A stretch of DNA of 64,000 nt, taken from the NCBI RefSeq assembly GCF_000217995.1, contig NC_015676.1, forward strand, positions 598,103 to 662,102, in the 5' to 3' direction. Each line of letters opens with the position of its first letter. Position 1 is the first letter of the stretch. This DNA is from Methanosalsum zhilinae DSM 4017. GTDB taxonomy: Archaea; Halobacteriota; Methanosarcinia; Methanosarcinales; Methanosarcinaceae. The translations under genes were made by a program, and so were the position numbers. Below are positions 4,992-43,943 of this stretch, in pieces. Below the pieces are notes generated by a model. The model was not told the DNA's origin. It made no database searches and saw only the letters and a program-made list of their open reading frames with translations.

Positions 4992-5076
4992 GCATTTATC
5001 AAATATCAAATGTAATTATCATTATAATCTCATCATTATCATAATGAGAAAAACGCGATTAGGGAGAAACAATCCT

Positions 5077-5799: not shown

Positions 5800-5833
5800 A
5801 CTTAATTTTATACAATTTCAGGAGAGATATGCT

Positions 5834-6583: not shown

Positions 6584-6588
6584 ATTGA

Positions 6589-6617
6589 GATTTAGTTTCC
6601 TGACGGGAAACTAAATC
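6589..6617 (+). terminator. hairpin after archaellin 2
   Basis: A perfect 12-base-pair inverted repeat (GATTTAGTTTCC / GGAAACTAAATC, loop of 5) starts six bases after the stop codon and is followed by a T-rich run. It may terminate most transcripts after the first two flagellins, or protect their 3' end, while the third flagellin has its own upstream AT-rich promoter region (AATATATATATT at 6660-6671). Confidence 0.65.
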
Positions 6618-6736
6618 CTGATTTTTATTTTTAATTTTTGAATTGTTAAAAGAATCAAACAATATATATATTAGATAAATCATAGAAAATTTACTGGATT
6701 TTATATCCTTTAATAATTTATTTAGGAGATATGTCA

Positions 6737-7477: not shown

Positions 7478-7490
7478 AGTTTTAAATTTT

Positions 7491-7512
7491 TGTTTCCATT
7501 TTTTTGGAAACA
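7491..7512 (+). terminator. hairpin after archaellin 3
   Basis: TGTTTCC and GGAAACA form a seven-base-pair stem around an eight-base T-rich loop, followed by TCCTTCTTTTATTTATTT. It lies 14 bases after the stop codon and shares the GTTTCC/GGAAAC stem sequence with the hairpin after archaellin 2. Confidence 0.5.
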
Positions 7513-7612
7513 TCCTTCTTTTATTTATTTGATTGATTTTTGATCTTTTAATTGAAAATTTGTCTACAAACAGGGTTTATTCTGCATCAATGTCAAAATA
7601 TTTTTCATAAAG

Positions 7613-7620
7613 TTTATATT
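7613..7620 (+). promoter_or_regulatory. TATA box of archaellin 4
   Basis: GTTTATATT about 45 bases before the ATG at 7661. Transcription would begin around 7645, leaving a leader of about 15 bases. This gives the fourth flagellin its own promoter. Confidence 0.45.
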
Positions 7621-7660
7621 CTATCTTAACCAGTTTAATTTATAACATCAGCAATTGAGG

Positions 7661-8452
7661 ATGGATGGCTTGAAACAAAGGAGCAGGTCCGCTTTTAAAA
7701 ACGATACTGGTGCTCAGATCGGCATCGGGACTCTTATTATATTTATTGCAATGATACTTATTGCGTCTGTAGCTGCTGCTGTAATGATCCAGACTGCAGG
7801 GGTTCTCAGGGAGCAGGCTGCCCAGACCGGGACACATGCATCCCATGAGGTATCTTCCAATGTTATGATCCGAAACATAGAGGGACACAGGGCTAACAGT
7901 ACATCAGAAGGTATTTCGAGTACTGTTGATCTTCTAAAGATCAATGTTGGGCTTCATGTTGGTACCAGGGAACTGGATGTAGGACAGACAATTATTACAG
8001 TTTCCGATGGTTCAAATACAAACACTCTTGTCTATGCAGGCAATGATGCTATCTATGGTACTGCAATGGATAACTTTGGTGCAAGCGCCAGTTTGAATCT
8101 GGAACGCCTTATAAATTCAACAACAGAAATACATGGCGTTAATGAAAACAATTCAAAAATATTTTTTACTGCCAATAAATTTAGGGATGAAGATGGCTCA
8201 TTTACTCAGAACAACCCCCTGATGAACAAAGGAGATCTGATATCCTTCTATGTCTCAACAGTATCAGATGAAGCATCCAGCTACAATAGTCTCTATGGCT
8301 ATGAGACTGAGCTTAAAAGCTCGGGACTTGAAATTGAACCTCGGACCAGAATGCAGGTTGTCATATCATCAGAATATGGACCTGATGTGTTCTTAAATTT
8401 TTACACGCCTTCTTCATATGGTGTTAATAGAATCGTAGGACTGTATCCATAA
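7661..8452 (+). CDS. arlB4: archaellin 4 (divergent paralogue)
   Basis: A 263-residue archaellin, clearly more divergent than the other three. The leader is MDGLKQRSRSAFKNDTGA, cut before QIGIGTL, followed by the helix IIFIAMILIASVAAAVMIQ. The C-terminus keeps YTPSSYGVNRIVGLYP. A longer centre (extra residues around 125-170) and His-rich substitutions set it apart. The start could be TTG 7655 instead, since GAGG directly abuts ATG 7661. Divergence plus a separate promoter suggests a specialised subunit, for example basal hook-like or minor archaellin; this is inference. Confidence 0.88.
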   Translation: MDGLKQRSRSAFKNDTGAQIGIGTLIIFIAMILIASVAAAVMIQTAGVLREQAAQTGTHASHEVSSNVMIRNIEGHRANSTSEGISSTVDLLKINVGLHVGTRELDVGQTIITVSDGSNTNTLVYAGNDAIYGTAMDNFGASASLNLERLINSTTEIHGVNENNSKIFFTANKFRDEDGSFTQNNPLMNKGDLISFYVSTVSDEASSYNSLYGYETELKSSGLEIEPRTRMQVVISSEYGPDVFLNFYTPSSYGVNRIVGLYP

Positions 8453-10308: not shown

Positions 10309-11801
10309 ATGCCAGATTACACGGATGAGGATCATATGGGGCGGATAAATAAAAATAATGATATTTTAAAAAAGATCAATGATCTGGCTATATCCCAATT
10401 TGATGAGATTGAATATGAATCTGCCAGTATTGAAACGGATCATTCAAAGGATGAAGCAACAACCAGGGATATATCTAAAAAGAAAACCTGTTCATGCAGT
10501 AGCAAAATGAGCAGAAAGGAAAAAATTGCTATTGAGGATATTTTCAGTGATGAAATAGATGCTAAAAATAAAGAGACGAATCCGGAAAATAATTCCTGTC
10601 CTTTGAAAGAAACAAAGGAAAAAAAGGCAAGTTCAGATATCTCTTTTCCGGTTAAAGAAACTGAAATTTCTGGTATCTCTGAAAAAACTAAACAGGAAAA
10701 GATCACAAACACAAATTCTTTAAAAGATGGCAATAGGCAAAAAATAGCTCTGATATATAACAAAGATCATGAAGCTCATTCTTCTGTCTGTCTTGGAATG
10801 GAAAGCCCTGAAAGACCTCAACGACTGACTAATGCTTACTGGTATCTTAAAAAAACCGTATATTTGAAGATGATAAATTCGAACTTTTTACCCGTTTTGA
10901 GATGGCGAATGAAAGAGACCTTTTACGTGTCCATACATCTTCATATGTTGATTTTATCCGCTCATATGCATCAAAGGGTGGTGGATTTCTGGGAGATAGC
11001 ACATATATCACTCCACAGTCATATGAAATTGCACGAATGGCTGCTGGTGGTGCTATTAAGGCAGCTGAACTTGTAATTGATGAAAACTATCTGTGCTCGT
11101 TTGCACTTATACGTCCCCCTGGTCATCATGCAGGTTCTGATAAATACAGCGGATTCTGTCTGTTCAACAATGCTGCAGTTCTGGCAAGATATCTCCAGCA
11201 GGTCAAAGGATTAAATAAGATCCTGATTCTTGACTGGGATGCACATGCCGGAAACGGGACAATGGATATCTTCTATAGTGATCCAACGGTTATGACTGTA
11301 TCTATACACCGGGAACCAGCTGATTATTATCCCCGCACAGGATTCACCGGTCAGACTGGTGAAGGTGCAGGAAAAGGTTTTACTGCAAATATTGAAATGC
11401 CCCAGGGATCCGGTGATGAGGAATACATAATGGCTTTTGAAGAAGTGATCATGCCACTTATCAACAGGTTCTCCCCGGATTTTGTTATATGCTGCTGTGG
11501 CTTTGATGGTTATTATCAGGAAAAGAACAATAAACTGAAGCTCACAGCAGAGGGCTATTATCAGATTGGAAGAATTCTCAGAAATGATCTGGCAGTTGAT
11601 TTTGTTCTACTTCTGGAAGGTGGTTATCACAGATTCAATGGACAGCTTTGTCATAGTATTCTTTCATCTTTACTTGGCAGAAAAAATCCAATAGATGAAA
11701 CTGATATATTTTCCCGGTATGAGCTGGGTATTCAGAAGAAAATATATCAAAAAGCACAGAAAAACATAGCAGATGTGAAAGAGCTATTCTCAATAAAATA
11801 A
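10309..11801 (+). pseudogene. histone-deacetylase-family protein with a -1 frameshift
   Basis: A charged, poorly conserved N-terminal region of ~150 residues leads into the start of a class II/acetoin-utilisation-type deacetylase domain (IALIYNKDHEAHSSVCLGMESPERPQRL, written here in two parts: IALIYNKDHEAHS and MESPERPQRL). The frame is then lost at a run of seven A (10849-10855); the domain resumes in the -1 frame as FEDDKFELFTRFEMANERDLLRVH and runs to 11801. The zinc and catalytic residues are intact in the second frame: RPPGHHAG, DWDAHAGNG, GFDGYY and LEGGY. The gap could be a true mutation, a sequencing error in the homopolymer, or frameshifting in translation. A second start, ATG 10336, has a better ribosome site (GAGGATCAT) than 10309. 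Confidence 0.75.
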
Positions 11802-11898
11802 GTCACAAAATATTATAATGAAAGTTGGTGTTGTTGTTAGTAGCAGAAGAATCAGTACGTACCTGGATTGACGAAAATAAGATAGATGGTAAAGTACT

Positions 11899-12783
11899 AT
11901 GAAAGAACTTGCAAAATCTGAAAACGGAATAACATTCTACAGGCTGGAGCACCCTGCAGAAATAGATAAGTTCAGAATAGGCGAATATGTATATTTTAAA
12001 AAACATCTCGGGATGTCTGATTATGTTGCCAATTTCAAAAGCTGGCTAAGAAGAAAAAACATTCTGCTAATCGTTGCAGTTTTTAAAGGTACTATCATTG
12101 GCTGGGTAATGAACGAAAGGTGGAACGACTGCTCGAAAGATGCTGGCCCTGTATCGGTTCTGCGTGGTATTGAAGTACATCCCAATATAAAGCGAAAAGG
12201 AATCGGTAAGGTACTTTTTCTCTTATCTTCCATGATACTTGTTGGATACATAATAACAAAACCGGTTAATGAGAATGCAAAACGCTTTTTCAGCTCCCTC
12301 AGATTCAGCTCAACGCAGGAAGATAGTCCCATTGAACTAAGTAATCACCCGGGGTATATGGCTCTTAATGTTGGCACTGGTAATTTAATAAGGCCAATTG
12401 ATGGAATAACTGTATTTACAAAAAATATTTCCCAGTGTACCAATGAACTTTTTGTGGATGAAATGGCTGAGATAAAAAAAGAGGAAGCTATGCGCAAAAA
12501 ACATGTCTCTTCTGAAAATAACAATGCTTGCGATGGGAAAAATTTAAGAACCGGATCTGACAGCAATGAAAAAAACTCAGGGGCAGAAGAGATGAAAAAA
12601 ACTGTGATTTCTGGCCAGAATACTGGTGGAAAATATCTAGGGATGCAGAAGATGAAATCTCCCTGCCAGTGCGGAACACTGTATGCAAAAAAATATCTGG
12701 TAAAAGGGGGGCGAAAAGGTATTTCTATTATCTGTTCTAACTGCAAAAAGGAACGTTATTTTCTTCCTCTAAAAAATAAATGA
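11899..12783 (+). CDS. GNAT-family acetyltransferase with C-terminal zinc-ribbon-like domain
   Basis: A 294-residue protein. Residues about 50-130 carry the acetyl-CoA-binding core of GNAT enzymes: a beta strand ILLIVAVFKGTIIGWV, then RGIEVHPNIKRKGIGKVLF (the Q/RxxGxG/A-type pyrophosphate loop, here KRKGIG), and an NENAKRFFSSLRF helix typical of the family's end. A Lys/Glu-rich linker follows, then a C-terminal CxC...CxxC knuckle (CQCG and CSNC, about 255-282). The substrate is unknown. It follows the deacetylase-like gene by 97 bases, which raises the idea of an acetylation/deacetylation pair; that is inference. A short frame ending at the start codon (about 11825-11902) looks like decayed coding sequence. 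Confidence 0.6.
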   Translation: MKELAKSENGITFYRLEHPAEIDKFRIGEYVYFKKHLGMSDYVANFKSWLRRKNILLIVAVFKGTIIGWVMNERWNDCSKDAGPVSVLRGIEVHPNIKRKGIGKVLFLLSSMILVGYIITKPVNENAKRFFSSLRFSSTQEDSPIELSNHPGYMALNVGTGNLIRPIDGITVFTKNISQCTNELFVDEMAEIKKEEAMRKKHVSSENNNACDGKNLRTGSDSNEKNSGAEEMKKTVISGQNTGGKYLGMQKMKSPCQCGTLYAKKYLVKGGRKGISIICSNCKKERYFLPLKNK

Positions 12784-12895
12784 TTTTATCTTAACTAGCA
12801 GAAGACTCCTTACTTGGAACTTAATAACAGATGGAAGATGAATGCGTAACTATTCCGAACCTAAAACTCAAACATTGTTAATAATATACATTTGA

Positions 12896-13386
12896 ATGCT
12901 AAAAGCTTACAAATATAGAATGTATCCTACAAAAGAGAAACAATAGATGTTCTTTTAACATTTCGGTGCAAGTAAGTTCATCTACAATTGGGCTTTGAAC
13001 AAAAATTGAGACCTATGAACAGGAAGGTAAACCCATTTCAAGGATCGACCTGAATAAAGACATATCTATTCTAAAACAGGATTATGAATGGTAAAGAATG
13101 TTAATTCAATCATTACAGAAAGCCACTCTTAATCTTGAAAATGCTTTTAAAAAATTTCAGAGAAAAAAGGATTTTCACAATTCAAGTCTCGAAAACATCC
13201 AAAGCAGAGCTTTTATGTTCCTTCGAATTGTAAGATAGATTATGAAAACAATAGAGTGAAACTTCCTAAATTTGGATGGATAAAAACTATTTTACACCAT
13301 AAACTCGGAATGGATACTTAAAAACAGCTACGGTATCCAAAACGTCTACAGGTAAGTTCCATATAATTATTCTTTTAGAATCTCAT
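12896..13386 (+). pseudogene. decayed TnpB (IS200/IS605-type OrfB) fragment
   Basis: Translation in shifting frames gives recognisable TnpB sequence: MLKAYKYRMYPTKEKQ at the start, FGASKFIYNWALN soon after, then LQKATLNLENAFKKF, VKLPKFGWIK, and TVSKTSTGKFHIIILLES at the end. Several stop codons and at least two frameshifts interrupt it, and the nuclease core and zinc finger of the C-terminal half are missing. No TnpA gene or intact ends are visible. The fragment stops at about 13386, where a truncated antiporter gene on the other strand begins. Confidence 0.8.
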
Positions 13387-13651: not shown

Positions 13652-13661
13652 TATTTATATA
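13652..13661 (+). promoter_or_regulatory. TATA box of the cheF operon
   Basis: TATTTATATA preceded by an A-rich BRE-like CCCAAAAATA. Transcription would start near 13687, leaving a leader of about 65 bases before cheF. No other promoter-like element was seen between the seven tightly spaced genes that follow until about 19262. Confidence 0.55.
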
Positions 13662-13750: not shown

Positions 13751-14344
13751 ATGGCAGAAGAGCAGGGCATTGCCAAAGTTGATCTAAGCTACATAACAAA
13801 AGCTGTAATGATGGGTAATTCATTATATTCCAATGATTGGCAGAAGGGAGTTCTTTACCTTACAAATATGAATCTGTGGTTTTCGATGGGTCAGCAGGGA
13901 TGGTCCACGATTCCACTTAAAAACATAACTATGATAGGACGAGAGGTGACTGATGCTCTCAGGGCAAAAGCTCAGAAAGCCACAGGAACCTCAAATGTAC
14001 TGATCATTGATTATATGCATCCTTCAAGTATCAGTCAGGGATCCAGTGCATCGTCGATTGCGTTACTGGCAGGTCCTGAGCCTGTAATTAATACTCTGAA
14101 AGCATATCTTCTTCCAATGTGTGGTCAGGCTCCCAGAGCAAGGTCACTTAATGAGATCGATAAAAAACTGTTATATATGTTCTATACCGGAGTAACTGAA
14201 CTCCAGAAAATAAATTTCCTGATAGGTGCGGATATGGATACACTGACCAATAGTTTTGAGAACTTAAAGGAACAGCAGCTATGTGATTCATCAGGCAGCT
14301 TAACTACCAGGGGAATGCAGAAGATCAAGGAGATGATGGGATGA
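13751..14344 (+). CDS. cheF: taxis adaptor CheF
   Basis: A 197-residue cytosolic protein of the archaeal CheF family (DUF439). CheF links CheY, CheC2 and CheD to the FlaC/D/E collar of the archaellum and is needed for taxis in halophiles (established for the family). The N-terminal half is a beta-rich, PH-like domain (GVLYLTNMNLWFSM... then IPLKNITMIGREV); the C-terminal part has the family's helical hallmark, KLLYMFYTGVTELQKINFLIG followed by a short wHTH-like end, written as YMFYTGVTELQKINFLIG here. It is shorter than haloarchaeal CheF. It heads a block of unknown genes rather than lying in the che operon itself, which connects that block to motility. Confidence 0.75.
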   Translation: MAEEQGIAKVDLSYITKAVMMGNSLYSNDWQKGVLYLTNMNLWFSMGQQGWSTIPLKNITMIGREVTDALRAKAQKATGTSNVLIIDYMHPSSISQGSSASSIALLAGPEPVINTLKAYLLPMCGQAPRARSLNEIDKKLLYMFYTGVTELQKINFLIGADMDTLTNSFENLKEQQLCDSSGSLTTRGMQKIKEMMG

Positions 14345-14393
14345 AATATACTTTTTTGATTACACAAATGCAGGAGATGATACTATAACCGAT

Positions 14394-15344
14394 ATGCCTC
14401 CTGGTCCCCCGCCATTTGAGGATATATCATCATCTGGTCCGCCTCCTATGGAAGGTGCTGGATTTGCCCAGTCCATGGGTGCATTTGGAAACATGCTGAA
14501 AATACAGGAATCGATCAGTGAACTGCTTCCAGAATCCAAAGTACCGTGGAATGAGTCCCGTAAATTTCTCAAAGCAAATACTATAGAGAATATAAAATCC
14601 ACACCTCTTTATAAGTTTCACAGAGATCTGTTCAAAAAGATCGGATTGGGAGATATTCAGCTCATTGGTTATGCTCCGATGCATTATATTTTTGGAGTAC
14701 CTGATTGTCCAGTCTGTAATCTTTATCCGGCGCTCAATAATCAGAAAGTATGTGCTGCAACAACTGATGCTCTTTACAGGTTCTTCGCTGAAGACCTTGA
14801 ACTGGAGTGTTCCGTTGAAGAGATCGAGTGTACAAAAGACGGTGGTCAGATATGCAAATTCAAAGTTGATCTTCAGCCCATTTCTGCATATCAGATTATG
14901 CTGGACGAAACAGACAGGAAGATCTTGAATGGTCAGGATTTGAAAAATATTGGTTCTGATGAGCTGGACAGAAGAAAAGAAATACTCACAGTCTATAAAC
15001 TTCTTGAAAACGGGCAGCTATCCGAAATTGGCAGGACCTATATGCAGTTTGCTGGCAATATGCCAGTACAGGAAAAGATTTTCGATCCGCCGTGGAAGGC
15101 TCGAGAGGAGCTGGCATCCATTGCAAAGGAAAAAGGAACCTTTGGTGCTGCTTTTGGATCTATGAAAGAGAAAATGCAGGCATCAGGTGATAAAAATGGA
15201 AGAGATGCAACTGTCACTCCCAGAGTCAAACCGGTAGATGCTGATAAGAAAGAACACATTCCGGAAAAGAATAAACCTGATTCAGGTAAATCTGAAAGTT
15301 TTGCAGAGCTTCTCTCAAAAATGAAAAAAAATAAAAAGGAATGA
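14394..15344 (+). CDS. V4R-domain protein
   Basis: A 316-residue soluble protein. After a Pro/Gly-rich N-terminus (1-20), residues about 65-160 form a V4R (4-vinyl reductase) domain: YKFHRDLFKKIG, then CPVCNLYP, a TDALYRFFAEDLELECSVEE segment and CKFKVDL. The Cys residues at about 105, 108, 120, 139, 146 and 154 fit the metal- or ligand-binding role known for V4R domains in BchJ- and DmpR-type sensors. A helical wHTH-like segment (about 165-215) follows, then a Lys/Glu-rich tail. The AGGAG upstream is about 15 bases from the ATG, which is a long spacing. It probably senses a small hydrophobic molecule or carries a metal centre and passes this to its operon partners; inference. Confidence 0.65.
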   Translation: MPPGPPPFEDISSSGPPPMEGAGFAQSMGAFGNMLKIQESISELLPESKVPWNESRKFLKANTIENIKSTPLYKFHRDLFKKIGLGDIQLIGYAPMHYIFGVPDCPVCNLYPALNNQKVCAATTDALYRFFAEDLELECSVEEIECTKDGGQICKFKVDLQPISAYQIMLDETDRKILNGQDLKNIGSDELDRRKEILTVYKLLENGQLSEIGRTYMQFAGNMPVQEKIFDPPWKAREELASIAKEKGTFGAAFGSMKEKMQASGDKNGRDATVTPRVKPVDADKKEHIPEKNKPDSGKSESFAELLSKMKKNKKE

Positions 15345-15345
15345 T

Positions 15346-15681
15346 ATGATGGGTAATGTTTCTTCAGAAGAATTCTATGAGTCAATATCTGATTTTAAGG
15401 GTGAAAATGTGCATGTGGTCACTTCCACTTCACGCTATAGAGGACTTTGTGATCAGATTGATCGGGCAGGATTAAACATTCTTCTCAAGAATGTAGTTGA
15501 AAGGCGTGAAGATGGCTGGATCGAGATCAGTGACATGATGCTGATAAAAGGCGACTCCATTGAATCGCTTTTTCTGGAAAAATCATTTCCCTTTGAATCC
15601 CATGAAGCAATCATACTGTCTGTAGAAGATGGAGAACTTACAGATAATGGAAATAAGGATCATATTGACCATATAGAGTGA
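15346..15681 (+). CDS. small protein of the cheF block, possible beta-barrel fold
   Basis: A 111-residue protein. The centre (VHVVTSTSRYRGLCDQIDRAG then LNILLKNVVERREDGW, ISDMMLIKGDSIESLF) resembles the strand pattern of an Sm-like beta barrel: a first strand with RYRG, then LxLxNVVE, then the LIKGDSI strand. This fold call is inference from pattern. The gene begins one base after the V4R gene stop and its end overlaps the region before the ATPase gene, so it is tightly coupled to both. A possible role is as an RNA- or protein-binding adaptor. Confidence 0.5.
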   Translation: MMGNVSSEEFYESISDFKGENVHVVTSTSRYRGLCDQIDRAGLNILLKNVVERREDGWIEISDMMLIKGDSIESLFLEKSFPFESHEAIILSVEDGELTDNGNKDHIDHIE

Positions 15682-15686
15682 TAATT

Positions 15687-16772
15687 ATGAATATTGAGAG
15701 GATACCAACAGGAATCACCGGGCTTGACAGGGTTATTGAAGGTGGTGTTCTGAACAATTCGACTCTTCTTGTAGTCGGGTCAAGCGGTACCGGAAAATCC
15801 ACCTTTTCAATGCAATACATAATGTATGGGCTGGAAAGAGGAGAGAATGCACTCTACATAAGTATGGAAGAACCACCAGAGCAAATAATGCGGGAAGCAA
15901 AAATGCTCGGTTTTGATATGGATAGGTACTATAACAAGGAATTGTTCTTTTTCCATTCCAAAGGTGAAGATTTCAGAATGCTGGTAGAAGAACAGCTTCC
16001 TGCACTTGTGGAAGCAAATCAGGAATATGATGTGAGGACAAGGGTTGTGATAGATCCCCTGACTCCCCTGATATGGTCAGTACAGGATAAACAGGAACAG
16101 AGGGATCTGATAACTAAATTGTTTTATACTTTAAAACAGATCGGCCCGGTTCTTGTAACCACAGAGGAACATGCATCACCTGGTGAAACAATGGGCGAGG
16201 ATGTTCTTATTCCAGTATATCTGTCAGATGGAGCAGTTCATCTGACCTACAGGCCTATTGGAGGTGCATTCAACCGTGCACTTGAAATAATCAAGATGAG
16301 AGCAACACGACACGGTGAAGAGGTCTATCCGTATATCTTTGTAAGAGGCTTGGGTGTGGTTGTAAGGACAACTCCTATGGTATCTTCTGATGATATTAAC
16401 AAATATGATGATGTATTTGATCGGGCTATCCGCACAGCTTATGATATGGGAGCGTCTGATACCCTTCAGCAGAAAATCAGGACCATAAAGGAAAACTGGT
16501 CATATACATTTTCTCCAAAAGAAACTCTCCAGTTATTATTTGAGATGCATGATCTCACAGATACGGTCAGAACCAGGAAGAAGAAGGATCTTGATAATGG
16601 CGCATCTTCGGACAATGTGGCTGATGAGGAAATGACTGGTGTTATGGAAGGAACAGAAAGCACCGGTAATGAGGATACAGCTGCAGAAATAAATGATGCT
16701 TCAGAAACGAGAAAGGCAGATTCATTGATCGATATAGATGATCTAAGTGAACTGGAAGAGATTGTGAAGTAA
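15687..16772 (+). CDS. KaiC/RAD55-type ATPase of the cheF block
   Basis: A 361-residue single-domain P-loop ATPase of the KaiC/RAD55 superfamily, the family that also contains ArlH. It shows Walker A GSSGTGKST (about 31-39), the paired catalytic acids in SMEEPPEQ (about 60-66), Walker B VVIDPLTPLIW (about 120-130) and the family's final MRATRHGEEVYPY and GLGVVV strands. Unlike ArlH, it has an ordinary active-looking catalytic glutamate pair. The remainder (about 280-361) is an acidic, Glu/Asp/Ser-rich tail suited to protein contacts. The ATG at 15687 is preferred over GTG 15678 because GAGTGAT precedes it. It sits between the Sm-like gene and a Roadblock-like gene, a partnership common for KaiC-type signalling ATPases. 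Confidence 0.8.
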   Translation: MNIERIPTGITGLDRVIEGGVLNNSTLLVVGSSGTGKSTFSMQYIMYGLERGENALYISMEEPPEQIMREAKMLGFDMDRYYNKELFFFHSKGEDFRMLVEEQLPALVEANQEYDVRTRVVIDPLTPLIWSVQDKQEQRDLITKLFYTLKQIGPVLVTTEEHASPGETMGEDVLIPVYLSDGAVHLTYRPIGGAFNRALEIIKMRATRHGEEVYPYIFVRGLGVVVRTTPMVSSDDINKYDDVFDRAIRTAYDMGASDTLQQKIRTIKENWSYTFSPKETLQLLFEMHDLTDTVRTRKKKDLDNGASSDNVADEEMTGVMEGTESTGNEDTAAEINDASETRKADSLIDIDDLSELEEIVK

Positions 16773-16777
16773 GAGAT

Positions 16778-17560
16778 GTGATTGGAGTGTCCATCAAAAA
16801 GACAAAGGAAGACCTTGAGGATGTCTCACTCCTCAAATTCGCACTTACCCGCCAGCTTCAGAGAATGTATGAGACCACTGATGTAGATGTTATTATGTTT
16901 TCAGGGGTTGATGGAAAGATATATGCTTCATACATTCCCGATTCAGTTGGTTCTAAGATATTTGAACTGACCACACTTATCAGCAATAATATGCTCCATA
17001 TAGCAAAGCAGCTTGATATGGGTTTGAAGCAATCTGTTGTTGAATATGACACCGGTACCACTGCCATATTTTCCTCGGTTGGCAAAGGGGCTCTTCTTAT
17101 TTCACTGTTTACCAGAAGAACAGACCTTGCAGAGAACATGAATAAGATCGAAATAACCAGGAAGGTCATGCAGCACGTTTTTGAACAGCGACCCATGACA
17201 TCAGATCAGCTGGCTGAATATCCTTCGCAGGTAGCTGATGAACTGCGAATCTTGAGTAAGAGCGTATTTGATGAAATGTACACTCATTCATCTGAATACA
17301 AAAAGAATATGGAAATACTTGCGGATATCAAGGATAAAATTGCAACTGTTATGGGTAAAACGGAAGTTGATCAGGTACTTGCAATGGCTTTCTATGAAGT
17401 TGCATCCTCACCTAAATGGATGACTGAAGATCTCTGGATAATGCTGGTTGAAATGATCATAAATCAGCAGATAAGGCCCCTACATGGGGACTATATAGCA
17501 GATATTTGTGAAACTGAATGGATTCCCGATATCAGGCACAAGCTCGAAGCGTTTATGTGA
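16778..17560 (+). CDS. Roadblock/LC7-like protein of the cheF block
   Basis: A 260-residue soluble protein. Residues about 25-120 have the Roadblock/LC7 (longin-like) pattern: helix LLKFALTRQLQRMY, strand VDVIMFSGVDGKIYASY, strand TTAIFSSVGKGALLISLF, then a helix ending in RKVMQHVFEQRP. Such domains partner small GTPases or KaiC-type ATPases and often regulate them. The C-terminal half (about 140-260) is helical and of no recognised family. It begins with GTG at 16778, five bases after the ATPase gene, so the two are coupled. Fold call is pattern-based; the family name is moderately sure. Confidence 0.6.
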   Translation: MIGVSIKKTKEDLEDVSLLKFALTRQLQRMYETTDVDVIMFSGVDGKIYASYIPDSVGSKIFELTTLISNNMLHIAKQLDMGLKQSVVEYDTGTTAIFSSVGKGALLISLFTRRTDLAENMNKIEITRKVMQHVFEQRPMTSDQLAEYPSQVADELRILSKSVFDEMYTHSSEYKKNMEILADIKDKIATVMGKTEVDQVLAMAFYEVASSPKWMTEDLWIMLVEMIINQQIRPLHGDYIADICETEWIPDIRHKLEAFM

Positions 17561-17584
17561 TAGAAATAAACTGGTGGTGATATA

Positions 17585-19261
17585 TTGGAGAACGTGCAGG
17601 AAAAATCTGAAAACGAGACACCCTTTAATGATGATTTAGATGGGATGAATAATATATCTGAAAATATAAACGCCACCAGTGAAAATGATATTTCAGCCTG
17701 TGATAAGGATGACTCTTACATTCAAGAGGCAGAGAGTTCATCTGATTCTATAGATGCTGAAAATACTCCGCAAAACTATCCAATAGTTGCTAATACACTT
17801 CCCCGGAAAATGTATGATTCAGAATCAGAAGAAATGGAAGGTATTAATGAAGAGGAATGCACTGAAATTGATATTTATAGTAACAATAACAATACAGACC
17901 CTTGCAGGACCGATCATTCACATATGGATGAACTAAAGAAGGAGATAACAGAACTGCAATCACAGGTCGAAGATATCAGAACTTTTTTTGAAAATGACTT
18001 TGAATCATCTCTTAGAAATATATCCAGGCTGGAAAAAGACCTGGAGTCAAAGGCAGATGATGAGGAACTTAAAAAGATTAAAGATGAGTTTCATATATTT
18101 TCAAAGCGTCTTAAGAAAGTAGCAAAGGAAGCGGATGCTGCAAGCGAAGAGGTTCTGGATGCAGCTAAGATCCCTCCTGATGTACTGGAGATTGCGTACT
18201 CCAAGACCCTGAACAATATTTTTGATGAGATCGTTAAGACCTTTGGTGAACGTGATGCTACTGAAATTGTATCAAATGTAATCGGAAAGGTAAGATCTTC
18301 AAGTGCAGGAGTAGACTTTTTCCGCTTTGAAAGTGGAAGGTTTACAGTATATAAATTAGCTGAGGCTATAGAGACCCGACTTGTTTCCCCCAAACAAATC
18401 CATGGAACGTATGTAGAGCTGTTCAGCCGTTTGATGGAGTATATCCCCGGATATGAGGCAAGAGACTTCAAGGCATTTGTTGAAACGGGAAGCATGGAAT
18501 ATGTTATCGAGAAGGTAAGGCTTCATGAAAATATTTATTACGACCTCATGGCAGAAATGGAGGAATTAAATCAGAGGATATCCGGTCTTTCTGATAAGGT
18601 GGACTCTGTCTGCCAGAAACAGGTGGAACTGGAAAATGCACATGATGATATACTGAGCAAAACTCCATCCCAGGGCTTTCCGGCTGTAGAAGATGTTAGA
18701 AAACTGGCTGATGCTGTAAATACTCATACAAAACTGATCAAAAAATTAAATGATAACATAAATAATGTTCAAAGCAACCTTCAATCAAATACAGAGGAAA
18801 TAGAGGGACGCCTTCAAGACTTTTCTGTAAAGATAGAGGATAATTCAAATGATGATATTGATCATGATGAGGTGGAAGATAGATTAACTCATTTCAATGA
18901 ATCATTTAGTAAAAAATTTGAAGAGCTTGAAACCAGGTTAATTTCGGACATTAATGAAATCCGATCTTCTGAAAAGAATGAATCTGAAATATCTTACCTG
19001 ATGGATGAGATCTCAAAACTTAGAGAGGAGGTCAATTCATTCAAAGAACATTCCATTGCTGATAGAAATCATGAGATTCTTGAGATTGTCCGCAAAGAGG
19101 ACGGTGCTACTCTCAAACAGATCCAGAAAAAACTTGGATCAAAAAATATTTCTGTGGATAAAGAAGAACTGACCAAGATATTGAATGATTTACAGGAGAG
19201 AGGAAATATCGTTTCCAGCAAAAAGGGAAGGTATATTTATTATTCATTGAAAAAAAATTGA
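17585..19261 (+). CDS. long coiled-coil protein with a C-terminal winged helix
   Basis: A 558-residue protein. An acidic, Ser/Asn-rich N-terminus (1-110) leads to a coiled coil (about 110-180), a compact helical domain (about 195-310, from PPDVLEIAYSKTLNNIFDEIV to an ETGSMEYVIEKVRLHENIYY segment), a second coiled coil (about 320-490) and a winged-helix end (about 500-558: ILEIVRKEDGATLKQIQKKLG then NDLQERGNIVSSKKGRYIYY). Translation starts at TTG 17585 after GGTGGTGAT. The coiled-coil length is like that of archaellum collar proteins or cytoskeletal scaffolds. The wHTH could bind DNA or act as a protein-interaction module. No family is named. Confidence 0.6.
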   Translation: MENVQEKSENETPFNDDLDGMNNISENINATSENDISACDKDDSYIQEAESSSDSIDAENTPQNYPIVANTLPRKMYDSESEEMEGINEEECTEIDIYSNNNNTDPCRTDHSHMDELKKEITELQSQVEDIRTFFENDFESSLRNISRLEKDLESKADDEELKKIKDEFHIFSKRLKKVAKEADAASEEVLDAAKIPPDVLEIAYSKTLNNIFDEIVKTFGERDATEIVSNVIGKVRSSSAGVDFFRFESGRFTVYKLAEAIETRLVSPKQIHGTYVELFSRLMEYIPGYEARDFKAFVETGSMEYVIEKVRLHENIYYDLMAEMEELNQRISGLSDKVDSVCQKQVELENAHDDILSKTPSQGFPAVEDVRKLADAVNTHTKLIKKLNDNINNVQSNLQSNTEEIEGRLQDFSVKIEDNSNDDIDHDEVEDRLTHFNESFSKKFEELETRLISDINEIRSSEKNESEISYLMDEISKLREEVNSFKEHSIADRNHEILEIVRKEDGATLKQIQKKLGSKNISVDKEELTKILNDLQERGNIVSSKKGRYIYYSLKKN

Positions 19262-19389
19262 AGTATAATCCGGGATGGCTCCAATGGACAATCAATATGG
19301 TATGTTTGAAGTACAGCATATGATTGGAAATACCTGTAAATGTACTGTTAATATTCTATAAAGAATAAAAAGAAAACCGAGCTGATTTC

Positions 19390-19977
19390 GTGGTCAACAT
19401 TGACAATAGTAAACTTCGCACAAGGCTGTTGAAATATTTTTCAAAATATAATGTACAGTCAATCAATGTTCACAGTCTTGCCAGTGAGCCATCTGTAGAT
19501 GAGTGCTGCAATGATATTGAAGAAATTACCAGGTATCTGATAGTACCCATTGAAACTAATATAAAGAAAGAACTGGCCCAGCTGTTCAAAGAATGTGAAA
19601 ATCCAGAAATTCCTTATTTTGAAGTTGTCATGGATATTATGCAGTTTATGAATGATTTTGTAGGAGATCCACATACTGTTGAGATGATGTTTGGCCGGAT
19701 CAATAATGAAGTGGCCAGGAAAAAAATGGAACTTGATGAAAAGAAGTTCTATCCCAATGAAGAATGGACTGCTGAAGTTGCCGATGCAGCCATCCAAAAA
19801 CTTCGAAGTTCAGGAACTGAAAGGGATTATGAGTTGATGATAGATAAAATAGTTCAGACTCTGGTCCATTCAGGAAATAAAAACGAACTTAAAAATGCAA
19901 GAATGAAGCTTAATGACATTATCAAAAAGCACAGTAACCATGAACTGCGCCAGCTTGATGAGCAACTCTTTGGATAA
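19390..19977 (+). CDS. helical protein of unknown function, last of the cheF block
   Basis: A 195-residue soluble, mostly helical protein that begins with GTG at 19390. It contains FMNDFVGDPHTVEMMFGRIN and a basic C-terminal part (KNELKNARMKLNDIIKKHS). No catalytic motif or known domain is visible. A gap of 128 bases after the coiled-coil gene, holding a possible 28-residue frame (19275-19361), separates it from the rest of the block, so it may be co-transcribed or have its own promoter. Membership in the functional module is inferred from direction and distance. Confidence 0.45.
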   Translation: MVNIDNSKLRTRLLKYFSKYNVQSINVHSLASEPSVDECCNDIEEITRYLIVPIETNIKKELAQLFKECENPEIPYFEVVMDIMQFMNDFVGDPHTVEMMFGRINNEVARKKMELDEKKFYPNEEWTAEVADAAIQKLRSSGTERDYELMIDKIVQTLVHSGNKNELKNARMKLNDIIKKHSNHELRQLDEQLFG

Positions 19978-21937: not shown

Positions 21938-24073
21938 ATGATAGATTTTGATACGATTAAAGAAAAAACGAATATAGATCTGCGGTCTGTTAAAATCAAA
22001 ACAACCGCTTATGTAGTGATTGCATTGGTAATTATTTTTGCAATCTCAGGTATAGTAATTATAAATGCTGTTACAGATATGCAAACAGAATTAGCATATG
22101 GTGATGTGAGAAATGAAGCACAAATTTATGCAAATCAAATAGATTCTGATTTAAATCAATATATGACAACCGCTGTCACACTTTCAGGTATGTTAACTCA
22201 ATATGAAAGTAATGACAGAAATGAAATTAGCAATGTATTGCGCCAAACTTTAATCAACAATCCTAATTTCGAAGGAGTTTATGTAGCATTTGAGCCGAAT
22301 GCGTTTGACGGACTTGATGATGAGTATGTTAATGCTGAAGGACACGATGGCACTGGTAGATTTATACCTTACTGGTATCGCGATGGAAATACAATAGATC
22401 TTGAGCCATTAGTTGATTATGACACCGAAGTTTACTATCAATTACCTAAGACACTGGAACAAAATGTGGTAACTGAACCTTATATGTATCAGGGTGTATT
22501 ATTATCCAGTTTTGTATCTCCCATAATGGTTAATGGCCAATTTATTGGAATTGCAGGCACTGATGTGAACCTTATGTACCTTGATGACCTGATGGATGGG
22601 GTTACACTATTTGATACTGGTTATGCAGTATTGTTGAGTAACGATGGAGTCATAATTACTCATCCAATTGACAAAGATTTAATGGGCAATAATAATATTG
22701 GTGATTTTGAAGGGGAAGTATTTACTCAGATACAAAGAGATGTTAACAACGGTGTTTCCGGCCAGCTTAATGCAATAAGTCCTGTTACTGGTGAAAATGT
22801 AGTTTATTCTTACGAACCAATAGAGACCGGGGATTATGCAGTATTAACTGTAGTACCAGAAAATGAAATATTAGCTGGTGTTTATTCACTTCAGATACAG
22901 ATTATTACTATTTTTATAATTGCGGTTGGCTTGATGGGTATATTGAGCTATTTTGCTGTTGGTTCAATAGCAAACCCAATGCGTGCAGCTGCAACACGGG
23001 CTGAAAAGATATCCAAAGGTGATCTTACCGGTGAAGTTGACAATAAATTCTTTGGTCGCAAGGATGAGGTTGGAACACTTGCATCTTCTTTCCATGAGAT
23101 GATGGAAAACTTGAATTCACTTGTAAGAGGTATCAAAACAAGTGCTGATGATACTGCTTCAAAGGCTCAGGAGATGTCTGCCACCTCCGAACAGACAACT
23201 GCCTCTGCAAACCAGATTGCTGATACTGTTTCTGAGATATCTAAAGGTGCACAGACCCAGTCTGCAAAGATTGAGGAAGTTGCCCGGGCAATGAATGATA
23301 TGAACCAGAGTGTTCAGGACGTGGCTGAGAATGCACAGAGGGCATCTGAAAAATCTGAAAATACTGCAATACAGATCCAGAATATTGGTGAATCTTCTCA
23401 GGAACTGCTCAGAAAGATGAGTGGAATCCAGAAGTCTTCTGATGATACTTCTGAGGTTGTTTCTCAGCTTGACCAGAAGTCCACTGAGATCGGTAAGATC
23501 GTCAATCTGATCACAAGTATTGCAGATCAGACCAATCTTCTTGCACTCAATGCTGCCATTGAGGCTGCAAGGGCAGGTGAGCATGGACGTGGATTTGCTG
23601 TTGTTGCAGATGAGGTCAAGAAACTTGCAGATGAATCCGGTTCTGCTGCAAAACAGATTGAGGAACTGATTGCTGAAATTCAGGGTAGTACTCAAAACGC
23701 AGTAAATTCAATGAATAAAAGTAAAACTGAAATCAAAAATGGGGCTGAATCTCTGGATGAAACTGTAAAATCAATCAGTGATATTGTAAGTGATGTAACT
23801 GAGATTTCCAGGATGGTGCAGGAAATCGCAGCCGCTGCCCAGGAACAGTCTGCATCTATCGAAGAAGTTACAGCTTCTGTGGAAGAGGTCTCTTCTATAT
23901 CTCAGGAATCTGCTGCAGGAACCCAGGAAGCTTCAGCTGCAGTTGAAGAACAGACTGCTTCAATGCAGGAGATATCCAATGCAGCCCAGCAGCTGGCTGA
24001 AATGGCTGATAAACTTCAGAAAGATGTTGAATATTTCAAAGTCAACGCATCTGAAGATAAAAAGGAAGAATGA
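21938..24073 (+). CDS. methyl-accepting chemotaxis protein with extracellular dCache domain
   Basis: A 711-residue transmembrane chemoreceptor. TM1 is about 22-45, the external double Cache domain runs about 50-300 (includes [25 protein letters not shown] and [17 protein letters not shown]), TM2 is about 318-340, HAMP about 340-395 ([20 protein letters not shown]), and the cytoplasmic coiled coil about 400-700 has the invariant tip [20 protein letters not shown] and [13 protein letters not shown]. Several Glu/Gln-pair sites fit CheR methylation and CheB/CheD modification. It heads the chemotaxis gene set, 48 bases before cheW. The ligand is unknown, but the same Cache type occurs in the sensor kinase at 56551-59037 next to dimethylamine genes. 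It is the only receptor gene in the window. Confidence 0.92.
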
Positions 24074-24121
24074 AAGAGGGTTAGTATCAACAACCCTTTT
24101 ATTTATTTTCGGAGGAATTGA

Positions 24122-24628
24122 ATGGCTCAGGACACATCTAAAATAGAAGAGAGTGAATCCGGTGATGATCTGCTCCAGCTGGTTGTATTCCAGCTTGGCG
24201 GAGAGGAGTTCGGTGTTGATATCATGCAGGTACAGGAGATCATTCGCATGCCTGATACGACCCGTATTCCCCGGGCACCTGATTATGTAAAAGGCGTCAT
24301 TAATCTTCGTGGAAAGATAATCGTTGTTATCAACCTTGATACCAAGTTTGGGATCGAGTCCAAGGAACTGGACGAGGATTCCAGGATTATTATTATTGAA
24401 GTAGGAAACAATATCATAGGCATGGTTGTCGACTCTGTGAGCGAGGTAACCCGTCTTCCAGCTTCAAATGTTGAGAAGGCACCTGAGATTATTACATCCA
24501 AGATCAAAGCAGAGTATATTATGGGCGTTGGTAAGCTTGATGAACGGCTACTCATACTGCTTGATCTTGAGAAAGTGCTAGGGGACGAGGAAGTTGCTGA
24601 AGTTTCTGAAATAAAAAAATATGTTTAA
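24122..24628 (+). CDS. cheW: chemotaxis coupling protein CheW
   Basis: A 168-residue cytosolic scaffold that couples the receptor to CheA. The CheW fold is clear: LLQLVVFQLGGEEFGVDIMQ, VQEIIRMPDTTRIPRAPDYV, GVINLRGKIIVVINL, a basic and Gly-rich turn, and IIGMVVDSVSEVTRLPASNV. GGAGGAATTG precedes the ATG. It lies 48 bases after the receptor gene and 30 bases before cheY, and CheA at 26204-28210 carries the matching P5 CheW-like domain. Confidence 0.93.
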   Translation: MAQDTSKIEESESGDDLLQLVVFQLGGEEFGVDIMQVQEIIRMPDTTRIPRAPDYVKGVINLRGKIIVVINLDTKFGIESKELDEDSRIIIIEVGNNIIGMVVDSVSEVTRLPASNVEKAPEIITSKIKAEYIMGVGKLDERLLILLDLEKVLGDEEVAEVSEIKKYV

Positions 24629-24658
24629 AGGCTATTTAGATGAAATGGAGAGATTTCT

Positions 24659-25015
24659 ATGGCAAAAATAATGATTGTAGATGATGCAGCATTTATGAGA
24701 ATGGTGATCAAGGATATTCTCACAAAAAACGGACATGAGGTTGTTGGCGAAGCTGTTGACGGTCTGGATGCTGTCAACAAGTACGGGGAATTGAAACCTG
24801 AACTGGTGTTTCTGGATATAGTAATGCCAAATATGGAAGGAATTGATGCATTGAAGAAAATCATTGAGATGGATAATAATGCAAAGGTTGTGATGTGTTC
24901 TTCCATTGGTCAGCAGTCTGTTGTCACAGAAGCGATCAAAGTTGGGGCCCAGGACTTTATAGTTAAACCATTCGATGCTTCAAAGGTTCTTGAAGTTGTA
25001 AACAAAGTGATCTGA
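24659..25015 (+). CDS. cheY: chemotaxis response regulator CheY
   Basis: A 118-residue single receiver domain. It has the acid pair at 8-9 (VDD), the phosphoacceptor Asp 53 in FLDIVMPNMEG, Ser/Thr of the switch in MCSSIGQ (about 83-85) and the invariant Lys in DFIVKPF (about 103). Phosphorylated CheY carries the signal from CheA to the archaellum switch through CheF. It follows cheW and precedes cheB by 13 bases. Archaeal CheY is bacterial-like, and this one keeps all catalytic residues. Confidence 0.93.
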   Translation: MAKIMIVDDAAFMRMVIKDILTKNGHEVVGEAVDGLDAVNKYGELKPELVFLDIVMPNMEGIDALKKIIEMDNNAKVVMCSSIGQQSVVTEAIKVGAQDFIVKPFDASKVLEVVNKVI

Positions 25016-25028
25016 ATAATGGATATAT

Positions 25029-26156
25029 ATGACAATAAATGTTATTGTTGTTGATGATTCCGCTTTCATGCGCAGGGTTATCTCGGATATCCTGAATAAA
25101 GATCCTGAAATAAATGTTGTAGCTACTGCCAGAAATGGCAGGGATGCGATAGAGAAGATTGAAAAGCTGCGCCCTGATGTTGTCACACTGGATGTTGAGA
25201 TGCCTGTACTTAATGGTCTTGATGCACTTGGATATATAATGAGCGAGTGTCCAACACCGGTTGTGATGCTCAGTTCAGTTGATGAAAGGGCAGCAGAAAT
25301 TACACTGACAGCATTTGAGTATGGTGCAATAGATTTTATACAGAAACCATCTGGACGTATCAACCCAGATATTTCTGCGGTAGGTGATGAAATATGTTCC
25401 AAAGTAAAGACAGCAGCATACGTTGATGTGAATAAGCTTGACTTTATGGAAGAACATGTTCGAAACAATTTCAGGAAACAGAAATCAGAAGGTACACAGA
25501 GGGATCAAAAGTCTGAAAATTTGTCATTCTCTCTACAAAAACCACATATTAACAAAAAGATCCTTGCAATTGGCTCTTCTACAGGAGGGCCACGCGCACT
25601 GGAACAGATCATCCCCCGGCTTCCTGCAGACTTTCCTGCTGCAGTGCTGGTAGTACAGCACATGCCTGCTGGTTTTACCGCTTCATTTTCAAAGAGGCTT
25701 GATTTACATTCGATGCTCAGCGTAAGAGAAGCAAAGAATGGAGATATTGTAAAAGAAGGCGAAGTTCTGGTTGCACCTGGTGATTTTCATATGGAGATCA
25801 CAGAGCAGAAAATAAATGGTGCTATCCAGGGTATAGTAAGACTGAATAAAAATCCCCGGGAAAAAGGTGTAAGACCAGCAGTAAATTATCTTTTCAGGTC
25901 CATTGCTCCAATATATGGTTCAAATATTGTTACACTAATACTGACAGGAATGGGTAGTGATGGCCTTGAAGGAGTTGAAGCAATTAAAAAGATGGGTGGA
26001 AGGTCTGTAGTTGAGGATGAACTAACCTGTGTGGTGTATGGTATGCCAAAGGCGATTGCGGACAGAGGTCTTGCAGATAACATAATCCCTCTGGATAATA
26101 TTGCAGATGAAATAGTTCAGATGTTTAATAAAGAATTAAGGGGCAGTCGGAATTGA
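25029..26156 (+). CDS. cheB: chemotaxis methylesterase CheB
   Basis: A 375-residue two-domain protein: an N-terminal receiver (about 4-125, VDDSAFMRRV, phosphoacceptor Asp in VVTLDVEMPVLNG, Lys in IDFIQKPSG) and a C-terminal methylesterase domain (about 180-375) with the Ser-His-Asp triad in AIGSSTGGPRALEQ, VVQHMPAGFT and ILTGMGSDGLEG. It removes methyl groups from receptor glutamates, and phosphorylation by CheA activates it. Both catalytic domains look complete. It is adjacent to cheY and cheA within one transcription unit. Confidence 0.93.
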   Translation: MTINVIVVDDSAFMRRVISDILNKDPEINVVATARNGRDAIEKIEKLRPDVVTLDVEMPVLNGLDALGYIMSECPTPVVMLSSVDERAAEITLTAFEYGAIDFIQKPSGRINPDISAVGDEICSKVKTAAYVDVNKLDFMEEHVRNNFRKQKSEGTQRDQKSENLSFSLQKPHINKKILAIGSSTGGPRALEQIIPRLPADFPAAVLVVQHMPAGFTASFSKRLDLHSMLSVREAKNGDIVKEGEVLVAPGDFHMEITEQKINGAIQGIVRLNKNPREKGVRPAVNYLFRSIAPIYGSNIVTLILTGMGSDGLEGVEAIKKMGGRSVVEDELTCVVYGMPKAIADRGLADNIIPLDNIADEIVQMFNKELRGSRN

Positions 26157-26203
26157 ATGTAGACCAAATTTATGTTACATTTCCTTAACAGGAGAAATAA
26201 TCT

Positions 26204-28210
26204 ATGAGTATGTCTGAATACAGTGAAATCTTCAAGACAGAATCTGATGAACACCTTCAACAGCTGAATCAGAATCTTCTGGAACTTGAACAGGATTTCA
26301 GTAATATTGATAATATTAATGTAATGTTTCGTGCAGCGCATACACTTAAAGGTATGTCTGCTACTATGGGTTATACAAGAATTGCCGACCTTACTCATGA
26401 AATGGAAAACCTGATGGATCGGATAAGAGGACGGGAACTGGAACTTAACCGGGAGATAATAGATCTTCTTTTTCAATGTCTTGACTGCCTTGAAATGTTG
26501 ATAGAAAATGTAGATAACGATGAAACAATTGATACCTCTGATCTGATCTCCAGAATAAAATCTGCAGCTTCCGGAGCAGTAAATGTTGATCTAATCCAGG
26601 ATGAGGGTTTGGAAGATGATTCCATAGCTATTGATGAGATTGATATTCATGATCTGGAACTGTCAGATGATGACCATAAACGAATCAATAAACTGAATAA
26701 TGAAGGGCATGGTGTTATAATTGCTACAATATGCCTGGATAATTCCTGTCTTTTAAAAGCTGCCAGATCTGCTCTTGTTTTGCGCTCAATATCAAATATT
26801 GGTGAGGTTATCAAAACAATTCCTTCGGTTGAAGAACTGGAGGATGAGAAGTTTGATACAGATTTTAAAGTTATATTTGCAACCAGTGAAAATAAAGATA
26901 GAATATCTGAAAATGTAACAAAAATCTCTGAAGTAAAAAAAGTAACTCTTTTTGATCTTAATTACGCAGCTTTGACAGGCTCAGAAAATCCCGGGTGTAA
27001 AGATCTTGAAACCAGTGGTTCTGCAGAAGTTTCATCTGCAACCAGACGTGATGGCATAAAAACTGTTCAGAGTGTAAGAGTAAGTATTGAAAGACTTGAT
27101 AACCTGATGAACCTTGTCGGAGAACTTATAATCAACAAAAGCAGGCTTAACCAGCTTGCAACTGAAATTGAAACAAAAAATCTGGATGAGGCCCTTGCAA
27201 ACCTTGATCGTCTGACCAATGATATACAGGTGGAAATCATGGATGCGAGGATGGTTCCAATTGACCAGATTTTCAAAAGATTTCCAAGAATGGTCAGGGA
27301 TCTGGCAAAATCTCAAAATAAAAAGATCAATTTTGTAACTGAAGGAAATGAGATCGAGCTTGATAGGACTGTTCTTGACGAGATCGGTGATCCCATGGTT
27401 CATCTGCTACGAAATGCAGTGGACCATGGAATTGAAGATATGCAAACACGGATATCAAAAGGCAAATCTGAAACCGGATCTATAACTCTGAAAGCATCAA
27501 GACAGAGAAACAACATAATAATAGAGGTAAATGATGATGGAAAGGGGATGGATCCTGAAAATATAAGAAAAGTTGCTGTGGAAAAGGGGATTATAAGTAG
27601 ATCTGATGCAGGTAATCTTACAGATCGTGAATCTCTCTATCTTATTTTTGAAGCAGGGTTTAGTGAAGCCAAGCAGATAACTGATATCTCTGGAAGAGGT
27701 GTAGGGATGGATGTTGTCAGGACCAAAATAGAAGGCCTTGGCGGACTGGTTGAGGTTGAGTCAACTGTTGAAAAGGGAAGTAGTATCAAATTGAGGCTAC
27801 CTCTAACTGTTGCAATCATTCAATCTCTTCTGGTCCGGGTTTCGGATGAAAAATATGCCATCCCAATAAATAACATTGTCCGTGATGAAGTTATTAAATC
27901 AAGTGACATAAAAACTATTAAAGGTGAAAAAGTGGCAGTTCTTCGGGGAGAAGTATTGCCTATTGTCTGGCTTCATGATCTTCTGGATATTCCAGTAGAG
28001 GATGCATCCAGAGACAATCTTCTTGTGGTAGTTGTTGAAAAAATGGGGGATAGCGTGGGACTGGTGGTTGACAGACTACTTGGCCAGCAGGAAGTAATAA
28101 TAAAAAATCTTGATAATAAATTGTTAAAAGATGTAAGGGGCTTTTCAGGAGCTACTATTCTGGGCGATGGCCAGGTAGCATTAATTCTTGATATATCGAC
28201 ACTGATCTAA
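26204..28210 (+). CDS. cheA: chemotaxis histidine kinase CheA
   Basis: A 668-residue kinase with domains in order: P1 HPt with phosphoacceptor His 46 (FRAAHTLKGM), a linker and archaeal-type P2 (about 160-250), P3 dimerisation (VSIERLDNLMNLVGELIINK, about 287-350), P4 HATPase (LLRNAVDHGIEDMQTRI N box, DDGKGMD, GFSEAKQITDISGRGVGMDV G boxes) and P5 CheW-like (SVRVSDEKYAIPINNIV, ending LDISTLI). It autophosphorylates and feeds CheY and CheB under receptor control. All key motifs are present. It follows cheB by 47 bases, with AGGAG before the ATG. Confidence 0.94.
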   Translation: MSMSEYSEIFKTESDEHLQQLNQNLLELEQDFSNIDNINVMFRAAHTLKGMSATMGYTRIADLTHEMENLMDRIRGRELELNREIIDLLFQCLDCLEMLIENVDNDETIDTSDLISRIKSAASGAVNVDLIQDEGLEDDSIAIDEIDIHDLELSDDDHKRINKLNNEGHGVIIATICLDNSCLLKAARSALVLRSISNIGEVIKTIPSVEELEDEKFDTDFKVIFATSENKDRISENVTKISEVKKVTLFDLNYAALTGSENPGCKDLETSGSAEVSSATRRDGIKTVQSVRVSIERLDNLMNLVGELIINKSRLNQLATEIETKNLDEALANLDRLTNDIQVEIMDARMVPIDQIFKRFPRMVRDLAKSQNKKINFVTEGNEIELDRTVLDEIGDPMVHLLRNAVDHGIEDMQTRISKGKSETGSITLKASRQRNNIIIEVNDDGKGMDPENIRKVAVEKGIISRSDAGNLTDRESLYLIFEAGFSEAKQITDISGRGVGMDVVRTKIEGLGGLVEVESTVEKGSSIKLRLPLTVAIIQSLLVRVSDEKYAIPINNIVRDEVIKSSDIKTIKGEKVAVLRGEVLPIVWLHDLLDIPVEDASRDNLLVVVVEKMGDSVGLVVDRLLGQQEVIIKNLDNKLLKDVRGFSGATILGDGQVALILDISTLI

Positions 28211-28227
28211 ATTATATGAGGTTAAAA

Positions 28228-28842: not shown

Positions 28843-28867
28843 ACGTTAGTATTATGATGGTGAGGGT

Positions 28868-29695: not shown

Positions 29696-29718
29696 AATGA
29701 TCATTATGACATAAATGG

Positions 29719-30345: not shown

Positions 30346-30402
30346 TCTGATTTACTATACAACCCTCAACAGTCATAACATGAAAAATGGAAGAATAAAG
30401 GT

Positions 30403-30879: not shown

Positions 30880-30891
30880 AGGAGATTAATT

Positions 30892-43839: not shown

Positions 43840-43943
43840 AGAATTACTCACTTTTATATACAGATCGGTATTCTTGTAATTATCATTAAATGTTTAGTTC
43901 TCAATAGCTTCAATTAATATCAATTTTTTGCAGTAAAGTACCC

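Follow-up and report, generated by a model that had tools for sequence, protein, structure and literature searches.

To our knowledge, the route from chemotaxis signalling to the archaellum motor is known only for canonical CheF. This protein pairs two PH-like domains with a CheY-P-binding domain at its C-terminus (PMC9126983). The motor itself includes a KaiC-family protein, ArlH, and KaiC-like ATPases are also encoded beside type IV pilus genes of archaea; the same paper separately mentions that pilus loci encode Roadblock proteins (arCOG02603) (PMC4858521). In methanogens, V4R domains occur in the redox regulator MsvR, whose DNA binding responds to redox state, clearly under the control of C206 (PMC3729527). 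Here, we describe an operon from Methanosalsum zhilinae DSM 4017 in which relatives of these proteins are encoded together beside archaellin genes.

Genomic setting

The window (the whole 64,000-nt stretch of DNA that was analysed) corresponds to C1:598103-662102 of the complete 2.14 Mb M. zhilinae genome and contains archaellins, a second ArlCE, a seven-gene module (M1–M7) and a che cluster. The module comprises seven co-directional genes (+) at 13751–19977, and all of the open reading frames reported there in an earlier note, made from the sequence alone, are present. Gaps within M1–M6 are no longer than 50 bases and M6 and M7 are 128 bases apart; with the GTG at 15678 as its start, M4 shares 4 bases with the end of M3, and the same −4 overlap occurs in most relatives. 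About 90 bases 5′ of M1, a TATA-box-like TTTATATA (13654–13661, +), read directly from the sequence, is a possible candidate for the operon promoter. The long gap 5′ of M1 (12890–13360) resembles, by eye only, a decayed remnant of the IS200/605 TnpB type (KAYKYRMYPTKEKQ, LKLPKFGWIKT).

Four archaellin genes precede the module (5044–8452, +), the first matching PF01917 with an E value of 7.5e-32 and the others being assigned from similar ORFs. The second ArlCE paralogue (1187–2452, +; PF05377 and PF04659) is 61% identical to the ArlCE of the motor operon (ArlCE, ArlF, ArlG, ArlH, ArlI, ArlJ), which is located outside the window near 1.78 Mb in the same genome. ArlI of this operon (L130:6441-9935, −) is 1165 aa in length and aligns with its relatives in tblastn as two separated pieces, suggesting an intein. 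A receiver protein and a fusion of an inactive KaiC with a receiver (L130:14174-15697, −) adjoin the motor operon; the fusion is similarly placed in four of the five module relatives checked, is absent there in G097 and also adjoins alaS, and it was dropped as a candidate partner of the module. A second archaellin locus (L131:5528-13177) encodes CARDB-like membrane proteins and an 884-aa protein with an ArlCE-like end, the second ArlCE being the gene at 1187–2452 of the window.

Between the archaellins and the module, at nearly all loci, sit a histone-deacetylase-like enzyme and a GNAT acetyltransferase (10902–12783, +), a pair that might possibly exert acetylation control. On the 3′ side, an MCP gene and a che cluster (W, Y, B, A, C, R, C2, D, C3) occupy 21938–31551 (+), with no cheF inside; its last part (28216–31551) encodes three CheC-like paralogues and CheD. 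A 1050-aa MCM helicase that appears to bear an intein is encoded at 40699–43851 (−).

Component proteins

M1 (13751–14344, +; 197 aa) had been taken for CheF at the head of the module. The homology holds, as hhalign profile–profile comparison with canonical CheF gave 96.6% and the best PDB profile match is CheF 7ovp (E value of 0.063), aligned over the C-terminal domain; 7od9 is the other CheF entry among the PDB matches. PF04283 matches all 14 orthologues tested, all weakly (best 4e-4), and M1 itself scores 14.2 bits, below the Pfam cut-off of 25. The identification needs qualification in size and architecture: in M1 a single PH-like domain, where canonical CheF has two, precedes a winged-helix CheF C-terminal domain, and our reading of the alignments is that the dimer-joining strand of canonical CheF is shortened. 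By sequence, M1 is classified as a reduced, half-size CheF. Because M1 lacks one PH domain and the long dimer-joining strand, its binding of CheY-P is not assured. GRAM, KIF9 and similar weak Pfam matches in the module proteins were judged to be chance or uninformative.

The V4R assignment of M2 (14394–15344, +; 316 aa) is upheld by matches to PF02830 in 14 of 14 orthologues (best 5e-8), the window copy scoring below the cut-off (26.6 versus 31 bits). The protein has a Pro-rich start, the V4R domain (residues 103–158) and a conserved C-terminal SFAELL.KMKK peptide, and it also gave an MsvR-type match. Five cysteines are invariant in the alignment (C108, C120, C139, C146 and C154), and the spacing of C120/C146/C154 (26, 8) equals that of the MsvR redox cysteines C206/C232/C240; by analogy, M2 is probably a redox sensor.

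M3 (15346–15681, +; 111 aa), previously described as a small barrel-like protein, matches LSM with an E value of 3.8e-4 (20.5 bits, below the cut-off of 23.4) and SmD3 in the PDB with an E value of 0.003, and matches to LSM14, Gemin6 and LSM models occur among its orthologues; these profile matches suggest an Sm/LSM fold.

M4 (15678–16772, +) matches the KaiC family (PF06745) with an E value of 3.6e-46 and contains one KaiC domain (residues 9–229), a single RecA-like domain and not the tandem pair of circadian KaiC. In the family alignment Walker A, the catalytic Glu (EE) pair and Walker B are all invariant, in agreement with the earlier description of an active-looking ATPase, and an acidic tail ends in a conserved LIEID.L.ELEE motif. 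M4 is not ArlH: it scores 54.2 bits with the ArlH equivalog (cut-off 215), its clade is separate from ArlH on the tree and it keeps the Glu pair, which is absent from the ArlH sequences examined.

M5 (16778–17560, +; 260 aa) combines a Roadblock/LC7-like domain with a helical C-terminal domain. Its sole PDB profile match is 9jue, a Roadblock protein (E value of 2e-4), and hhalign against archaeal Roadblock proteins gave 84.7%; a search of Pfam, including Roadblock/LC7 (PF03259), gave no match. The AlphaFold model (pLDDT of 60.9) falls below 50 in the Roadblock region, with a confidently modelled helical C-terminus, and Foldseek returned nothing usable with it. The Roadblock reading of the earlier note is therefore retained for the N-terminal domain as Roadblock-like at the profile level only, the model being too poor to confirm it. 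On one Methanosalsum contig M5 is 96% identical.

The proposed coiled-coil/winged-helix character of M6 (17585–19261, +; 558 aa, TTG start) is confirmed by alignments, the model and Foldseek, which reveal a disordered start, coiled coils, a conserved core (residues 195–316) and a C-terminal winged helix. Within this order the 122-residue core is found only in module genomes, and the length of M6 in relatives ranges from 481 to 989 aa. PDB profile matches of M6 to coiled coils and unrelated stalk proteins were disregarded. M7 (19390–19977, +; 195 aa) is predicted from its sequence to be helical, and no credible relative of it was found.

Conservation and co-occurrence

The module was compared across 20 related loci, 120 genomes of the order and 393 of the phylum. 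As far as each contig reaches, the recurring order in the 20 loci is archaellin–g8489–g9311–deacetylase–acetyltransferase–M1–M2–M3–M4–M5–M6, and the order of M2–M6, 3′ of the archaellin genes, is kept in nearly all of them. Since this order is near-constant in 20 loci of other genomes, the arrangement exceeds chance. The M2, M5 and M6-core profiles identify the same 21 of the 120 genomes (M2 with three marginal extras), all belonging to Methanosalsum, Methanohalobium, Methanolobus or Methanomethylovorans; a strong M1 match is present in 20 of these 21 carriers, and across the phylum M5 occurs in 27 of 393 genomes, all from the same four genera. The idea that the genes form one module thus stands for M2–M6, which travel together beside archaellins, and has to be relaxed for M7, a facultative member present in 14 of the 120 genomes, not found in Methanohalobium and adjoining M6 in 12 of 20 loci. 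The link of M7 to the module is thus a loose one.

In Methanosalsum natronophilum (L030), M1 has been relocated in company with a homologue of M3 (51% identity), and the two now adjoin a different archaellin gene and genes of the ArlCE type (L132). The complete Methanolobus genome G111 (L044) has kept its Che cluster, but M1 is gone, M2 has no start and the frame of M4 is broken, which implies either that this genome can do without the module or that the assembly is poor. The earlier note had accepted that its idea would fail if the genes after cheF were not conserved together in motile relatives or occurred equally without archaella; M2–M6 withstand this test because they are conserved jointly, lie adjacent to archaellins and are accompanied by ArlH in all 21 carriers. 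That the module is a genuine, conserved operon with a functional tie to one archaellum and to the Che cluster belonging to it is well supported.

All 21 carriers possess clade-A ArlH together with CheB (ArlH clades were assigned from a tree for a subset and from ArlH scores for the rest). Around 31 genomes have clade-A ArlH, comprising the 21 with the module and CheB and ten other Methanosarcinaceae without the module. Five of the ten also lack CheB (G024, G037, G041, G109 and G116). The other five have an additional archaellum, and canonical CheF is encoded in the che cluster of this second system; it was read directly in G014, G019, G049 and G095 and in G091 appears as a match between cheY and cheW, ∼12 kb from the second ArlH. 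Canonical CheF above the cut-off was found in none of the 21 carriers, in a search that also missed CheF in G014, G019 and G049; the apparent absence in these three Methanococcoides genomes was a search miss, CheF being found by direct comparison. The che clusters inspected in five module relatives contain no CheF, and three Methanolobus genomes encode a different, tandem CheF-like protein (402–413 aa) that scores just above the CheF cut-off. Because canonical CheF was not found in any carrier, M1 is probably the adaptor; because the carriers are related, the phyletic pattern may represent only one or two gain or loss events.

The tandem CheF-like protein belongs to an unlinked operon (L232–L239), in which a PAS-DUF835 regulator is followed by the tandem CheF-like protein and a KaiC-like ATPase. 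The operon occurs in Methanolobus and, with genus names that are inferred, in Methanococcoides and Methanohalophilus, and some of its PAS-DUF835 regulators bear a receiver domain; DUF835 has been described as an inactivated KaiC-like domain (PMC5847659). That CheF-like proteins accompany KaiC ATPases in two operons that are not linked to each other supports a connection in function.

Proposed role

We propose, with about an even chance of being right, that the operon encodes a taxis adaptor for the archaellum that is specific to this lineage and takes the place of canonical CheF. CheY-P from the dedicated Che cluster would bind the CheF-type C-terminal domain of M1, whose single PH-like domain might dock on a complex built around the M4 ATPase and its Roadblock partner M5. 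M3 could serve as a small scaffolding part, with the long coiled coils of M6 as a tether, while M2 may add a thiol-redox or ligand input; an ATP-dependent change in M4 would then relay these inputs jointly to the ring of ArlCE and ArlH in the motor. The binding partners, signalling direction, redox input and motor action in this scheme are all inferred. The adaptor reading is favoured because M1 matches the part of CheF that binds CheY-P (PMC9126983), because M2, M5 and M6 share 21 genomes in an order kept beside archaellins in 20 loci, and because, among clade-A ArlH genomes, the 21 with the module have CheB, whereas the ten without it either lack CheB or encode canonical CheF in the che cluster of a second archaellum; the Che clusters inspected in five module relatives are without CheF. 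The relocation of M1 together with the M3 homologue to another archaellin, the tandem CheF-like/KaiC pairing, the Glu pair of M4 and the MsvR-like cysteine spacing of M2 also count in its favour. It is weakened by G111, in which the Che cluster outlasts an eroded module unless that assembly is poor, by the profile-level status of M5, by the reduced architecture of M1, by the small number of evolutionary events that the phyletic pattern may represent and by the three misses of the CheF search. The earlier proposal of a second device feeding the archaellum survives in its link to the archaellum, but the module does not look like an addition to a normal CheF pathway, since no canonical CheF was found in the carriers.

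A different and rather unlikely explanation is a positioning or polar-organising complex, in which M6 would be the coiled-coil scaffold, M4 and M5 an ATP-driven localization switch that places the archaellum, and M1 the tie to chemotaxis proteins. The long coiled coil of M6, with its variable length, and the Roadblock-like partner would suit such a role, and the composition of the archaeal polar cap is unknown. The module, however, tracks the Che cluster and not the archaellum alone, it is absent from Methanococcoides and Methanohalophilus, which share the archaellum clade, and it includes no MinD/ParA-type gene; nothing in the analysis favours the polar-cap analogue suggested earlier. Co-occurrence with the Che cluster is not predicted if the proteins regulate archaellum gene expression, with archaellin transcription or mRNA controlled by the winged helices of M1 and M6, by M2 through its MsvR-like V4R domain and by M3 through its Sm-type fold. 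The C-terminal winged helix of M6 does resemble DNA-binding repressors, and the V4R and Sm domains point the same way, but in M1 the winged helix belongs to the C-terminal domain of CheF, which is a module for binding CheY, and M2 is missing the DNA-binding domain of MsvR; we regard this role as improbable.

A CheY-independent redox or energy-taxis input, with a redox-sensing M2 driving M4 and M5 and M1 serving only as a motor dock, seems slightly less probable still. It would make use of the five invariant cysteines of M2, three of them with MsvR spacing, and accords with proposals that archaeal KaiC-like ATPases are signalling hubs (cited in PMC8978795; PMC5847659), but leaves both the tracking of the Che cluster and the missing canonical CheF unexplained. 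The least probable explanation is that unrelated housekeeping neighbours have been held together by descent without a joint function: the carriers do belong to four related genera, yet M2, M5 and M6 are present or absent together, M1 and the M3 homologue moved jointly and erosion in G111 was joint.

Returning to the adaptor reading, we tentatively suggest, as a bolder version with a clearly smaller likelihood, that the operon is an energy-consuming taxis switch, in which an ATPase complex of KaiC and Roadblock type would receive the CheY-P signal from the half-size CheF and also read redox state via the V4R protein, replacing a passive CheF; it would then be one case of a wider habit of CheF-like/KaiC pairing in these methanogens. 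A lineage that has apparently swapped CheF for a reduced CheF accompanied by KaiC, a probable redox sensor and a Roadblock-like protein offers a natural experiment on the requirements of the adaptor, and the module supplies testable partners for archaeal KaiC-like ATPases, most of which have no assigned partner.

Comparison with known systems

The earlier note knew of no named system with this composition, and we found none in the open literature that was searched, the Makarova 2017 survey of archaeal KaiC neighbourhoods left aside. The KaiC-like ATPases at archaeal type IV pilus loci similarly lie beside a filament locus with candidate partners, but in the part of that report drawn on here these partners are DEATH-like and KaiB-like and no CheF/V4R/Sm/Roadblock set is described (PMC4858521). 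ArlH shares with M4 the KaiC superfamily and the archaellum link, and differs in the Glu pair, missing in the ArlH sequences examined, and in the acidic tail of M4. MsvR resembles M2 in its V4R cysteines of matching spacing, but contains a DNA-binding domain that M2 does not (PMC3729527). The tandem CheF-like operon also places a CheF-like protein next to a KaiC-like ATPase, but with two CheF-like units per protein, a PAS-DUF835 regulator ahead and no archaellum linkage; the V4R, Sm and Roadblock members are found in the archaellum module only. Canonical CheF (PF04283; 7ovp, 7od9; PMC9126983) shares with M1 a PH-like domain and a winged-helix domain homologous to the CheY-P-binding tail. It is encoded inside the che cluster and has two PH-like domains and a long dimer strand, whereas M1, which falls below the Pfam cut-off, is encoded beside archaellins and retains a single PH-like domain and a shortened strand.
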